A stretch of DNA of 9,616 nt, taken from assembly GCA_031270875.1 (NCBI GenBank), contig JAISXC010000286.1, positions 1 to 9,616 on the forward strand. Reading direction: 5' to 3'. This DNA comes from Desulfovibrio sp. GTDB taxonomy: Bacteria; Desulfobacterota; Desulfovibrionia; Desulfovibrionales; Desulfovibrionaceae. The notes beneath the pieces are model-generated. The model was not told where the DNA came from. It saw only the letters and a list, made by a program, of their open reading frames with translations, and searched no databases. This document shows, piece by piece, positions 1,183 to 9,616 of this stretch. Position 1 is the stretch's first letter. Each line of letters begins with the position of its first letter. Made by a program: the position numbers and the translations under genes.

Positions 1183-1755
1183 TCACGCGCTGTACATCAC
1201 AGCGAGAATTTCCGCCGGTTCGCCGCCGGCCGCGCCGACATGATGCGGCACGATGGAATTGTAGTAAATCGTCTGTCCGGGCTTGAGAACATGTTTCTCG
1301 CGCCCGTAGACAACCAGCAACTCGCCTTTGAGCACCAGCATGAATTCCTCTCCCTGATGGGAAATGAGCTTGTGCTCTTCCCCGCCATCGGGCAACATGG
1401 TAATGAAAAAAGGTTCCATATTGCGGTCCGCTTTGCCCCTGGCCAAGGACCTGTGCACGTATTCCGGCCGCGCGTCATGGCCTGTCTGCAGGGCGCTGGC
1501 CACCTCCGCCCCGGCGCCGATGCGCGAAATGATGGGGTCGCGCACATCCTGGTCATCCAGAAAGGTTCCCAGGCGCACCCCTAGGGCGCGGGAAATTTTT
1601 TGCAGCGGTCCCAGGCCGGGATAGATTTCGCCGCTTTCCAGCTTCTCGATGAATTCCGGCTTGAGGCCGGTATTTTCGGCCAGATCGGACAAACCGACCT
1701 CGCGTCTCTCGCGAAAGGCGCGGATGCGCGAGCCGATGGCGGTATCGTTGGGCAT
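1183..1755 (-). CDS. XRE-family transcriptional regulator with C-terminal cupin domain
   Basis: A 190-residue DNA-binding regulator. Residues ~8-66 form an XRE/Cro-type helix-turn-helix (IGSRIRAFRERREVGLSDLA...EFIEKLESGEIYPGLGPLQKIS). Residues ~115-188 form a small cupin barrel. Cupin motif 1 is represented by H128, H133, E137 and G144; motif 2 is the stretch LKPGQTIYYNSIVPHHV around H171/H172. In this family the cupin usually senses a small ligand, and the gene often sits beside the acyl-CoA or AMP-binding ligase it controls. That matches its position 15 nt upstream of the ligase. The ATG at 1753-1755 has a GGAG ribosome site at 1762-1765, spaced 6 nt. It is transcribed divergently from the purine gene. 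Its target and ligand cannot be read from the sequence; autoregulation and control of the ligase are inferences from context. Confidence 0.93.
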   Translation of the reverse strand: MPNDTAIGSRIRAFRERREVGLSDLAENTGLKPEFIEKLESGEIYPGLGPLQKISRALGVRLGTFLDDQDVRDPIISRIGAGAEVASALQTGHDARPEYVHRSLARGKADRNMEPFFITMLPDGGEEHKLISHQGEEFMLVLKGELLVVYGREKHVLKPGQTIYYNSIVPHHVGAAGGEPAEILAVMYSA

Positions 1756-1912
1756 GACGTACTCCAGTGCGTTTTCACGGTTGGCTGTGCAAGAAAAGCC
1801 TGTACCAGAAAACCCGGGACTTCCGCAAGACCAATACCGCGTGCCGGCCGGATTTGCCGGCTGGAAGTGTCCGGTTTTTTATGATACTGGAAGAAAAAAC
1901 CCCGGAGGGCGC
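1756..1912. promoter_or_regulatory. Divergent intergenic region, putative purine-gene promoter and repeat
   Basis: This 157-bp gap must hold the promoters of both the regulator and the AICAR transformylase gene. On the plus strand a TATGAT -10-like box (1880-1885) lies 20 nt after TTGCCG (1854-1859). The spacing is longer than ideal, so this promoter is tentative. The hexamer GCCGGC, itself a palindrome, occurs twice, at 1843-1848 and 1856-1861, and could be an operator for the XRE regulator. No convincing minus-strand promoter was found. Confidence 0.35.
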
Positions 1913-3190
1913 ATGTCGGATTTGAAGACCATGTACCGCACAGTGCAGAAAGAGGATTTTCCTGAAAATCTGATCATTGAGCTGGGCGGGGAAAAGCTTG
2001 TTTATGAGAAACGGATCTGGAGCCTCAACGGGGAGAAAAAAGGCCTGCGCTACGGGGAAAACCCCGATCAGCCCGCCGCGCTGTACGCCCTCAGAAAGAG
2101 CCCTTCCGTCTGCGGAGGTTTCGCCCTGCGCGGGCCGGAGGGCGGCATTGTCTCGGCCCTCGCCGAGGGGCAGATGATTCAGGCGGGAAAACACCCCGGC
2201 AAGACAAATCTGACGGATGTGGACAACGGGGCCAACATCCTTCAATATCTCACGGAGCGCCCGTCGGCCGTCATTCTGAAACACAACAATCCCTGCGGAG
2301 CCGCCTGGAGCGACGGGGGCATTGCCCAAGCCCTTGCCCGCGCCGCGCGCTGTGACCGCATTGCCGCTTTCGGCGGCGCCGTGGTCGCCAACAGGGCCTT
2401 CAGCCGCGAAGCTGCCCGACTGGCGGCAAAATCCTATTTCGAAGTGGTGGCCGCGCCGGCTTTTGAAGAAGGGGCGGCGGACATATTGAAAAGCCGCAGG
2501 GATCTGCGCATCATGGAATTGCCCGGCCTCGGCCGCCTTGAGGAATGGCGGCGCTCGGCGTTTCTGGATATAAAAACCCTGGCGGACGGCGGGCTGGTGC
2601 TGCAAAAGTCCTTTGTCAACCGCATCGGCGAGGATGCGGACTTTCTGCCGGCCGAGGCGACCACGTCGGAAGGGTTCTCCGTTACGGCGCGGCGCCCCTC
2701 CAAATCGGAATTTGATGACCTGCGTTTCGCCTGGGCCGTGGAAGCGGGCGTGACGTCCAATTCCGTCATTTTCGCCCGCGATGGGGCTACCCTCGCCATC
2801 GGAACGGGAGAGCAGGACCGCGTGGGCTGCGTGGAACTGGCCGTGTACAAGGCCTATACCAAGTATGCCGACGCCCTGGCCTTTGACGAATACGCCCTCT
2901 CCCTTTACGAACTCAGGAAAAAAGCCGCGAAAGAAGGAGAATTTCAGGAAAAACTGGCGGATATCGAAGCCCGCGCCAGAGCGGCCCGCGCGAACCTTGC
3001 CGACTCCGTGCTGGTGTCCGACGGTTTTTTCCCTTTCCGCGACGGCGTGGACGCCGCCATACGCGAAGGCGTGGCGGCCATCGCCCAGCCGGGGGGATCC
3101 ATCAGGGACGCGGAAGTGATAACGGCCTGCAATGAAGCCTGCCCCCAGGTGGCCATGGTGTTTACCGGACAGCGGTCATTCAGGCATTAG
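1913..3190 (+). CDS. purH: Phosphoribosylaminoimidazolecarboxamide (AICAR) formyltransferase, stand-alone
   Basis: Transfers the formyl group of 10-formyl-THF to AICAR to give FAICAR, the penultimate step of de novo IMP synthesis (cytoplasmic). At 425 residues it contains only the transformylase half of bifunctional PurH. The N-terminal MGS-like IMP cyclohydrolase domain (~200 residues) is absent. Family signatures in order: LRYGENPDQPAALY (45-58), the catalytic Lys-His pair in LKHNNPCGAA (K123, H124), an AAFGGAVVANR block, SNSVIFARDG, IGTGEQDRVGC, SDGFFPFRDGVDAA, and the C-terminal FTGQRSFRH. The ATG at 1913 is chosen because GGAGGG at 1904-1909 precedes it, though the 3-nt spacing is short. 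The frame stays open upstream to 1649, but that part overlaps the regulator and has no family similarity. A separate IMP cyclohydrolase must exist elsewhere if the pathway is complete. A 60-nt gap follows before cbiA, with no clear terminator. Confidence 0.93.
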   Translation: MSDLKTMYRTVQKEDFPENLIIELGGEKLVYEKRIWSLNGEKKGLRYGENPDQPAALYALRKSPSVCGGFALRGPEGGIVSALAEGQMIQAGKHPGKTNLTDVDNGANILQYLTERPSAVILKHNNPCGAAWSDGGIAQALARAARCDRIAAFGGAVVANRAFSREAARLAAKSYFEVVAAPAFEEGAADILKSRRDLRIMELPGLGRLEEWRRSAFLDIKTLADGGLVLQKSFVNRIGEDADFLPAEATTSEGFSVTARRPSKSEFDDLRFAWAVEAGVTSNSVIFARDGATLAIGTGEQDRVGCVELAVYKAYTKYADALAFDEYALSLYELRKKAAKEGEFQEKLADIEARARAARANLADSVLVSDGFFPFRDGVDAAIREGVAAIAQPGGSIRDAEVITACNEACPQVAMVFTGQRSFRH

Positions 3191-8910: not shown

Positions 8911-8947
8911 AAGGCCTTCTGTGACTTGTGTGTAATGCCTCCGCCAA

Positions 8948-8977
8948 AGTATATGCCCTGACGAAACCTCCTGTAAA
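8948..8977 (-). promoter_or_regulatory. Predicted sigma70 promoter of the thiC-fur operon
   Basis: On the minus strand the -35 box TTTACA (8977-8972) and the -10 box TATACT (8953-8948) are separated by 18 nt. The start site would be near 8941, giving a leader of about 30 nt. That is too short for a riboswitch. Confidence 0.6.
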
Positions 8978-9033
8978 GCAAAAAGGCGCAGGGCTGACGC
9001 ATCTAATCATTCATAGGTTTTCTGGAAGAGAGA

Positions 9034-9084
9034 TCGGCACAATCAATTACATCCGGCAGAGCCGGATGTAACTGATTGTGCCGA
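9034..9084. repeat. 24-bp inverted repeat (hairpin) with 3-nt loop
   Basis: The arms at 9034-9057 and 9061-9084 pair over 24 bp around the loop AGA. The single non-Watson-Crick pair is an A-C mismatch in plus-strand RNA but a G-U wobble in minus-strand RNA, so the fold is favoured on the minus strand. There it is followed by the pyrimidine-rich TCTCTCTTCC, a poor but possible terminator tail. It starts 25 nt after the CRISPR-like repeat and may form the 3' end of the guide-like RNA. Confidence 0.85.
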
Positions 9085-9109
9085 ATAGAAAAATTAAAAC
9101 ACACTCATT

Positions 9110-9140
9110 ATTTCAATCCACGCCCCTACGAAGGAACGAC
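9110..9140 (-). CRISPR. Solitary degenerate type I-C CRISPR repeat
   Basis: On the minus strand this 31-nt element begins GTCGTTCC and ends TGGATTGAAAT. Type I-C repeats are typically 32 nt, begin GTCGC, and end in GTGGATTGAAA(C/T). The last 11 nt equal the I-C 5' handle left by Cas5c (Cas5d) cleavage. The stem CGTTCC/GGGGCG still pairs through two G-U wobbles around a six-base loop. No second repeat occurs in the window, so this is not an array. Confidence 0.8.
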
Positions 9141-9159
9141 ATTTGATCTTAAAAAACTC

Positions 9160-9189
9160 TTGACTGAAGGGCCTTTGGGGAGATATTAG
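9160..9189 (+). promoter_or_regulatory. Predicted sigma70 promoter of a small plus-strand RNA
   Basis: TTGACT (9160-9165) and TATTAG (9184-9189) are separated by 18 nt. Five of six and four of six positions match consensus. The start site would lie near 9196. The promoter points away from the CRISPR-like repeat and towards the hairpin and T-tract at 9206-9256. Confidence 0.55.
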
Positions 9190-9195
9190 CATGGC

Positions 9196-9256
9196 GCCGA
9201 GTGGGCAGGCTGGAAGCGACCTAAATGATGAGACGGAAACTTCCAGTCTGTTTTTT
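9196..9256 (+). ncRNA. Candidate ~60-nt small RNA ending in an intrinsic terminator
   Basis: Between the promoter at 9160-9189 and the T-tract no gene of normal size fits. The predicted RNA consists mostly of its own terminator hairpin. The 23-nt loop contains ATG ATG AGA CGG AAA (9225-9239), preceded at 8 nt by GGAAG, so a micro-ORF beginning Met-Met-Arg-Arg-Lys is possible. The ribosome site would be occluded by the stem. The left arm can alternatively pair with 9261-9276. No known riboswitch or sRNA family was recognised. The exact 5' end is an estimate. Confidence 0.45.
9206..9256 (+). terminator. Rho-independent terminator, plus strand
   Basis: CAGGCTGGAAG (9206-9216) pairs with CTTCCAGTCTG (9240-9250) over 11 bp with one G-U wobble, followed directly by six T (9251-9256) and then ATTT. 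The loop is 23 nt and may be shortened by the alternative inner stem GGA/TCC. There is no T-tract on the minus side. Confidence 0.65.
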
Positions 9257-9314
9257 ATTTAGCCTGCGCCGCCCACCGGAAAAAATTTCCCCGGCGCTGC
9301 CTTGGTAACTTCAT
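9255..9314 (-). CDS. 19-codon mini-ORF, candidate CreT-like toxin RNA
   Basis: The frame runs from ATG (9314-9312) to TAA (9257-9255) and would encode MKLPRQRRGNFFRWAAQAK, a basic peptide with no recognised family. Its ribosome site is consensus: GGAGG at 9325-9321 with 6-nt spacing, stronger than at most genes in the window. Codons 3-5 are TTA CCA AGG, unusual next to the GC-rich codon use of the neighbours. A hairpin starts inside codon 6: GCGCCG (9297-9292) pairs with CGGCGC (9271-9266), and within it GGAAA (9290-9286) with TTTCC (9282-9278). Strong SD, AUG, early rare codons and a stable stem-loop are the described design of CreT, a toxin that acts as RNA by trapping a scarce tRNA. The target of the guide-like RNA lies ~40 nt upstream. 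It could instead be a leader peptide or a gene remnant. Toxicity is inferred. Confidence 0.5.
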   Translation of the reverse strand: MKLPRQRRGNFFRWAAQAK

Positions 9315-9333
9315 GCTATACCTCCGTTGTAAA

Positions 9334-9348
9334 ATGTGCTAGGCACAT
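9334..9348. repeat. Short inverted repeat upstream of the mini-ORF
   Basis: ATGTGC (9334-9339) and GCACAT (9343-9348) are separated by TAG. It lies between the guide-matching site and the mini-ORF's Shine-Dalgarno, so it could be a 5' hairpin of the mini-ORF transcript or a repressor operator. Confidence 0.5.
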
Positions 9349-9351
9349 CGC

Positions 9352-9377
9352 TTAAGACACATTCATTAAAGTGTCAA
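9352..9377 (-). promoter_or_regulatory. Mini-ORF promoter with pseudo-spacer target site
   Basis: A perfect -35 box TTGACA (9377-9372, minus strand) is followed by CTTT and then the 16-nt guide-matching site (9367-9352). The -10 box at optimal spacing would be TAAGCG or TTAAGC, a weak match, so promoter activity is likely but not certain. The three bases 5' of the site are TTT (9370-9368), one base from the preferred type I-C PAM TTC. Cascade bound here would cover the spacer and -10 region and block RNA polymerase. Confidence 0.6.
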
Positions 9378-9410
9378 TGCCTCACCTCCACTTTTTCTGG
9401 GCAGGCGCAT

Positions 9411-9616
9411 CTAAATTTTCAGAGCCTGTAACAGAAAATCTTCGCTGAGAGCGATCTTGAAGCGTTTGCCCTTCAGGCTTGATTCTCCCGGTATGCTCCG
9501 GAGCAGGTTCAAACAAATACTTCGGAGTGTTCCGAGATTCTTGGACGCATTACGCGCCCGCGCCCGGCTTTGATCTTCATTGAAGACCACATCCGGACAC
9601 CAATGGAGAGAGTTTT
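9411..9616 (-). CDS. ISAs1-family transposase, C-terminal part (continues past the right edge)
   Basis: The last 67 codons of a transposase are visible, ending at TAG (9413-9411). The block NSLHWCPDVVFNEDQSR, then RNASKNLGTLR, SICLNLLRS and SLKGKRFKIALSEDFLLQAL, is the typical end of ISAs1 / H-repeat-associated DDE transposases. In this family the catalytic glutamate precedes the N-x-L-H-W motif. Its codon is cut by the edge: the two visible bases AA (9616-9615) fit GAA. The rest of the gene and the left end of the element lie outside. The terminal inverted repeat cannot be placed without the other end, so whether 9378-9410 is still element DNA is open. The visible part shows no stop or frameshift. 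Confidence 0.85.
   Translation of the reverse strand, partial: NSLHWCPDVVFNEDQSRARARNASKNLGTLRSICLNLLRSIPGESSLKGKRFKIALSEDFLLQALKI

Follow-up and report, generated by a model that had tools for sequence, protein, structure and literature searches.

What is a single type I-C CRISPR repeat doing between the end of a transposase gene and thiC? The question arises from the last few hundred bases of a 9,616-nucleotide stretch of Desulfovibrio sp. DNA (hereafter the window), in which a scan of the eight main ORFs recognised no cas gene. A first-pass annotation had proposed that the repeat belongs to a CRISPR-regulated toxin-antitoxin pair. The explanation we consider reasonably probable is that the minus strand from 9396 to 9034 carries a CreTA-like module working through a type I-C Cascade. 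In the mechanism that we infer, which predicts transcription, processing, repression, toxicity and mobility of the module, a transcript of the repeat and guide (9140-9034) would be processed by Cas5c, which cuts at the repeat, and would then join Cascade in the manner of a crRNA. Its guide would pair over 16 bases with a mini-gene promoter, with positions 6 and 12 flipped out and not read, and Cascade would block transcription of the mini-gene without a full-length match. The mini-gene itself would act as an RNA toxin of the CreT type and jam translation; it would be switched on if Cascade were lost or inhibited, and the cell would thereby depend on keeping Cascade.

Read along the minus strand, the cassette consists of the transposase end, TTGACA, the target, a ribosome site, the mini-ORF, a hairpin, the repeat, the guide, a long hairpin and an outer inverted repeat, followed by a promoter-like sequence and thiC (Table 1). 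The lone repeat, GTCGTTCCTTCGTAGGGGCGTGGATTGAAAT, was read directly and checked by script, and the guide that follows it differs from its target at positions 6 and 12 only, identity ending past position 16; the letters and coordinates given by the first-pass annotation are right. The guide-target pair is real. The second-best place for the guide in the window, with both strands searched, has mismatches at 5 of 16 positions, and the claim that the match exceeds chance is borne out by dinucleotide-preserving shuffles of 9140-9616, none of which (0/3000, both strands) equalled it as a 16-mer with at most two mismatches or with every position other than 6 and 12 matched. With a seed-only score (10 seed positions plus a TTC bonus, 750 bp searched), 18 of 5000 shuffled guides were as good as that of the window. 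Did the 16-base match originate by direct duplication? We rejected this origin because the flanks share nothing and because the same length and gaps recur in independent pairs.

Table 1. Features of the cassette in the window, in minus-strand order
Feature	Coordinates	Strand	Evidence or remark
ISAs1-family transposase, C-terminal 67 aa, open at window end; stop TAG 9413-9411	9411..9616	-	tblastn to plasmids
Inner right inverted repeat TTTAGATGCGCCTGCCCAG	9397..9415	-	two changes relative to the usual TTTAGATGCGTCTGCCCTG; ordinary copies end here at the transposase stop
Candidate -35 box TTGACA of mini-gene	9372..9377	-	perfect; -10 box weak
Guide target AATGAATGTGTCTTAA	9352..9367	-	preceded by TTT
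Mini-ORF MKLPRQRRGNFFRWAAQAK, 19 aa, candidate creT	9255..9314	-	GGAGG at 9325-9321; rare codons TTA-CCA are codons 3-4
Hairpin 3' of mini-ORF	9206..9250	-	kept in three cassettes; two-sided changes in 4 pairs
Lone degenerate type I-C repeat, candidate creA; 11-nt handle TGGATTGAAAT at 9120-9110	9110..9140	-	
Pairing part of guide (pseudo-spacer) AATGAGTGTGTTTTAA	9094..9109	-	match to target
Long hairpin closing the crRNA-like unit, probable 3' end or terminator	9034..9084	-	fold
Outer inverted repeat GATTAGATGCGTCAGCCCTG, boundary of inserted unit	8989..9008	-	comparison with L147, L148 and L149

The module region has 45% GC against 61% for the window. Most relatives have TTC in the PAM position, where the window has TTT (9370-9368), a triplet shared by four others among the 21 printed guide-target pairs, three of these four with weak controls. 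A -35 box reading into a mini-ORF with a ribosome site had been claimed for this place, and the claim holds for the perfect TTGACA and for the GGAGG, but the best candidate for a -10 box 15-19 nt away matches at 3 of 6 positions; no promoter at TTGACA 9377-9372 is in the promoter-scan list. That the target lies within a promoter is thus weakly indicated in the window and clear in the homologous cassette of genome G021.

The handle has 11 nucleotides, which we take to be the length in type I-C. Against the 31-nt array repeat of the nearest relative examined (G001), the 31-nt repeat of the window has six differences, its hairpin and handle being retained. The hairpin that closes the unit has 24-nt arms that are 96% complementary, and the fold of 9140-9030 has a z of -10. 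No sigma-70-like promoter for a guide RNA was found ahead of the repeat (best 7/12), and a search of Rfam up to an E of 1 gave only a chance snoRNA match distant from the module.

Further support for the pair can be found in two homologous cassettes. Searches of 288 genomes of G001's family by blastn, by pattern (at most two mismatches) and with an RNA model recovered further copies in G001:C221 and G021:C70 only, although such searches lose weak matches and more diverged copies are possible. The RNA model, built from the three cassettes, gives these 72-91 bits and the best other match in the 288 genomes 33.6 bits; no repeat handle lies near its ten next-best places (L294-L303). Among the other pattern matches that we examined, those in G074 and G104 were lone repeats preceding cas8c, and the rest fell in array spacers. 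The G001 copy (L104) matches bases 96-411 of the 421-base query at 88% identity and retains the transposase end, mini-ORF, hairpin, repeat, guide and terminal hairpin, without promoter, target or ribosome site. Allowing one mismatch to the tested 16-base pattern, we found no other target site in the draft G001 genome, nor did a shorter pattern with TTY reveal one there.

The G021 cassette (L092) is diverged yet colinear with that of the window. It has two TTC-AATGAATGT target sites, at 1879 and 1911, the first of them within a TTGACA-18-AATAAT promoter (11/12 matches). Its mini-ORF, MLRSSLRMKTAAMLRR, follows AAGGAGG and is itself followed by a hairpin; it contains one TTA and no tandem rare pair. 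The lone repeat differs from that of the window in the stem and is identical in the handle, and the guide, AATGACTGTATGTTAA, differs from the window guide at positions 6, 10 and 12. Do guide and target covary in relatives, as the first-pass annotation had suggested examining? At position 10 they do for site 2, since both it and the guide have A where the window guide and target have G, but site 1 keeps G, and L104 has no target to compare. The match of the G021 guide to site 2 is good over the first ten positions only (mismatches at 6, 11, 12, 14 and 16-18), and its control is the weakest among the 14 strong pairs of the survey described below (10/1000).

What kind of gene would the guide control? 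The mini-ORF starts ATG-AAG-TTA-CCA. Among the 2859 codons of the eight window genes TTA is absent and CCA appears 3 times, and both are within the three rarest codons of G001 (6914 codons, 17 long ORFs). Composition-matched shuffles contain TTA in 16% of cases, two of the three rarest codons in 11% and an adjacent pair of these anywhere in 1.5%; an adjacent pair falls within codons 2-7 in 0.5%, by a test devised after the ORF was seen. Between the two close copies, window and L104, the peptide has five replacements and the ORF no silent changes, because of which selection on the peptide is not visible. Since the peptide carries no sign of purifying selection, we disfavour a peptide toxin and favour an RNA or codon effect. 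The hairpin 3' of the ORF covaries, with 4 two-sided pair changes in three sequences, which 28 of 500 column shuffles equal, whereas slid versions of the alignment give 0-1 two-sided pairs. A mini-ORF together with this covarying hairpin between target and repeat was seen in the three cassettes only.

Judged by sequence, the mini-ORF, strong ribosome site, tandem rare codons and downstream hairpin have the layout of CreT, and the mini-gene is probably a toxin. The proposal of a CRISPR-regulated toxin-antitoxin pair therefore divides into two halves: the guide-target half is well sustained by the homologues, position 10, the every-sixth-base periodicity described below and the type I-C system of G001, whereas the toxin and addiction half would follow from the CreT layout. 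As a separate observation, the post-ORF hairpin and its A-run read as a terminator on the opposite strand: a promoter-like site on the plus strand (9160-9187) is directed at the conserved hairpin, and a T-run follows the hairpin on that strand. We did not adopt this site and the hairpin as promoter and terminator, its -10 box being untraceable by eye in the other two copies; an antisense small RNA from the promoter-like site and hairpin (9160-9262) is possible.

Is pairing of this kind a wider property of lone type I-C repeats? Cas8c was above cut-off in 79 of the 288 genomes, and 80 upstream regions were fetched (L178-L257), some of them short owing to contig ends; cas8c matches in G035, G102 (two pieces), G070 and G078, and second pieces in G008 and G125:C236, were omitted. 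Upstream of Desulfovibrionaceae cas8c we counted 45 lone I-C handles, loose matches (at most 2 mismatches in 13 bases) included. The score comprised positions 1-5 and 7-11 plus a TTC bonus, and a target was called strong if at most 10 of 1000 shuffled guides equalled it; 14 of the 45 handles, including the G021 cassette, have a strong nearby target and 31 have none. At the unscored positions 6, 12 and 18, guide and target match in 2, 3 and 2 of the 14 pairs, and at the unscored positions 13, 14, 15, 16 and 17 in 12, 10, 11, 11 and 8, the control match rate being 0.26-0.27 per position. Unread positions are neutral, not avoided, because neutrality predicts 3.5 matches in 14 at position 6. TTC precedes the target in 12 of the 14 pairs, a count that is no independent evidence because the score favoured TTC. 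The lone I-C repeats of Desulfovibrionaceae do show Cascade-like pairing, which extends over some 16 bases and skips every sixth, and the guide-target pair of the window has the shape of the survey pairs.

Ten of the strong pairs were read in sequence. In seven the target lies upstream of cas8c at no more than about 130 bp from the repeat, and these are apparent CreR-like cas regulators. The remaining three are the G021 cassette and two pairs, L224 and L257, in which a small ORF lies between target and repeat. The ORF in L224 (G216:C24, 5008 on), situated before cas5, encodes a 55-aa Cys/His-containing protein that has five other relatives besides an identical one and no Pfam family; it is a candidate for a protein-toxin (CrePA-like) variant. 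The ORF in L257 (G026:C7, 2374 on), 59 aa with a TTG start and no Pfam family, lies between the lone repeat and a matched target that adjoins TTGACA and has GTC in the PAM position.

The seven close-target pairs bring forward the most serious of the alternatives, a CreR-like regulator now without its cas genes. CreRs are cas-regulating RNAs described, in the available text of two papers, for types I-B, I-E and V-A only (PMC13131331) and for types I and V-A in general (PMC12737573), so that the apparent type I-C regulators of the survey would go beyond the subtypes listed in the first of these; and there they resemble the window module in being lone crRNA-like units with a partial promoter match. 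On such an account the window pair would once have auto-repressed a cas operon, the mini-ORF would be a leader peptide, and the IS would have carried off or cut the leader. The G021 cassette itself is directly upstream of cas5c, and the missing separate promoter for the guide RNA would also suit this account. Yet CreRs regulate cas operons, whereas in the window no cas gene follows: the mini-ORF is behind the target, and then comes thiC with its own promoter-like sequence. The restriction of the mini-ORF and covarying hairpin to the three cassettes also speaks against a regulator of this kind, and the tandem rare codons suit a toxin; altogether we consider a former CreR unlikely.

If the window holds a CreTA-like module, which Cascade would it answer to? 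The first-pass annotation had advised looking for type I-C cas genes; none is among the eight window ORFs, but G001, which bears the second module copy, has a type I-C system with Cas8c, cas3, cas4, cas1, cas2 and relatives of Cas5 and Cas7, its Cas3 lying just below the cut-off of the helicase model and above that of the HD model. At least four array repeats are present at a contig end in G001. In a comparison that covered whole Cas8c at about 36 loci, the G001 Cas8c is closest to those of G021:C70 (61% identity) and G010 (L086; 60%), no further match listed exceeding 42%. G172, the Cas8c of which was outside this comparison, has a Cas5 as close as that of G021 (69%), and no lone handle within 3 mismatches was found near G172 cas5; this Cascade group is therefore not always accompanied by a lone repeat. 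The G010 locus does have a lone repeat, with a guide and upstream site that resemble the window pair and have shared changes at positions 2 and 5, but we use this pair as a hint only because its control is weak (17/200). The G001 cas3-cas5 gap (L093 5700-5960) may contain a degenerate lone repeat and, for it, a promoter target that begins with AATAG; this repeat is a candidate CreR in the genome with the second module copy.

In G021:C70 the cassette is directly upstream of cas5c-cas8c-cas7 (L092 2006-5670). Two ORFs past cas7 were scanned, one without family and one for prephenate dehydratase, and no cas3, cas4, cas1 or cas2 was recognised beside these cas genes. Nor were further repeats or an array seen in the 9,000 of 10,656 bases of the contig that were read; Cas3 domains are present elsewhere in G021. 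The G021:C70 locus may encode a Cascade that is regulatory only.

How could such a module have come to lie upstream of thiC? Although Pfam gave no match for the 67-aa transposase fragment, 8 of the best 10 plasmid records (of 215) obtained with tblastn are annotated "ISAs1 family transposase". Full-length relatives have 365 aa and reside in 1152-bp IS copies, four copies of this ISAs1-type IS in relatives having that length; the two ordinary copies in G063 have 10-bp target duplications (read by eye). We compared 12 printed IS places besides the G001 copy, three of which are only 65-70% identical and some of which are cut by contig ends: in 10 of the 12 the right end, TAGATGCGTC[T/A]GCCCTG, is at the transposase stop with other DNA after it, and no repeat handle is seen in the printed stretch of any of the 12.

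In the window the module is placed between the transposase, with its inner IS end (9415-9397), and an intact outer end (9008-8989), a setting that the first-pass annotation did not mention. The outer end is in sequence that of a related IS type, with GTCAG in place of GTCTG. L147 and L148 share sequence as far as ...TTAGATGCGTCAGCCCTG and then diverge, as at IS-host junctions, and L149 carries the outer inverted repeat with one change. Just inside the outer end, the window and L104 have a common stretch up to GATTAGATG, after which L104 continues with other DNA, the two copies being at different loci. The simplest reading is that the transposase end, module and outer end moved together, with the left end outside the window, and the module most likely arrived ahead of the thiC promoter as an IS passenger.

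The thiC gene (8910-7615, minus strand; Pfam ThiC) has a promoter-like sequence between it and the outer repeat. Its product is closest to those of Desulfovibrio MAGs, presumably termite-gut genomes to judge by their sample codes, and is 91% identical to that of L053 (Iy174_bin55), which is in the same genome as L104. Upstream of thiC, L053 is homologous to the window over 8946-8988 and no further, other DNA without the module being found beyond; it is not a strict empty site because L053 comes from another species. Farther along the window (1649-3190) is an AICARFT/IMPCHase-family protein with a partial Pfam model match (positions 70-311 of 311). There were 0 exact pattern matches in viral contigs, and blastn of 8985-9616 against phages and plasmids gave no match.

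We conclude that the module is probably a transposon passenger and possibly a decaying one. The fuller proposition, that an ISAs1-type element carries a CreTA of which the antitoxin works only via the type I-C Cascade of the host, is tentative. If it is true, the element could establish itself without harm only where the host has the right Cascade and would punish the loss of that Cascade, and in G021 the module would guard a stripped-down cas5c-cas8c-cas7 locus. Has the module instead decayed entirely, so that what once worked and moved with the IS is now silent in the window genome? The weak -10 box, the mutated inner IS end and a second copy without promoter, target and ribosome site would agree with this, whereas guide, target, -35 box, ribosome site, ORF and hairpins are intact in the window and the guide matches at all 14 positions that count; we regard a silent relic as improbable.

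Other roles for a solitary repeat have much less in their favour. RNA anti-CRISPRs (Racrs) are, in the available text of PMC10651486, solitary repeat units of viral genomes, one of which was tested for type I-C, and the window also has a solitary I-C repeat tied to a mobile element, adjoining its transposase, with no cas genes. Titration of Cas proteins by a repeat mimic needs no promoter match, though, yet here a matched target with the every-sixth-base pattern exists and a homologue is beside cas genes, which makes a Racr very improbable. The CRISPR-associated transposons of types V-K and I-F encode a delocalized crRNA near the transposon end (PMC8730458, as far as its available text goes), and the window repeat does adjoin the outer IS end; a crRNA directing transposition is nevertheless scarcely credible here, given an ISAs1-type transposase, a guide whose sole match in the window is inside its own cassette and a G021 cassette with no ISAs1 gene alongside in the stretch read. 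A fortuitous resemblance of a decayed array repeat to AT-rich intergenic DNA might draw on the low GC of the region and on the 18 of 5000 seed-score shuffles, but it is negligibly probable in view of the 0 of 3000 region shuffles at the 16-mer level and the homologous arrangement in G021.

Why should a module of this size matter? Their very small size and poor conservation make CreTA modules difficult to detect, and the window may provide a type I-C bacterial example with homologues, one cassette away from cas genes and beside an IS, another in cis with a minimal Cascade locus. This points to simple transposons as possible vehicles of CRISPR addiction modules, and to a Cascade that a cell can retain purely for regulation. 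Additionally, the every-sixth-base pattern in 14 lone-repeat guides is a simple computational rule for finding more. Our literature search, which missed the original 2021 CreTA paper and the CreR paper, found no type I-C or transposon-borne CreTA in the text available to it, and an earlier description is possible.

Compared with the CreTA systems of Haloarcula hispanica and Halobacterium hubeiense, as they appear in the available text of PMC8501985 and PMC9458426, the window module is alike in its crRNA-like guide that partly matches a mini-gene promoter, in its mini-ORF with tandem minor codons (two in haloarchaeal CreT RNAs; PMC8501985) and in the stem-loop downstream; with H. hispanica it shares, in addition, a strong ribosome site and the lack of a 3' handle on CreA. 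It differs in being type I-C, bacterial and beside an IS, without cas genes in the window, in its rare codons (TTA-CCA, not AGA-AGA or AUA-AUA) and in the putative status of its toxin. The type I-F CreTA of Acinetobacter, to the extent covered by the available text of PMC10097628, is likewise bacterial, with a Shine-Dalgarno sequence before its mini-ORF and with the 6th, 11th and 18th guide bases unpaired, but there two repeats flank the guide, against one in the window, and the subtype and toxin sequence are others. Relative to the literature compared, as far as its available text extends, what appears to be new is a type I-C CreTA-like module, its setting in an IS and its link to a minimal Cascade locus.
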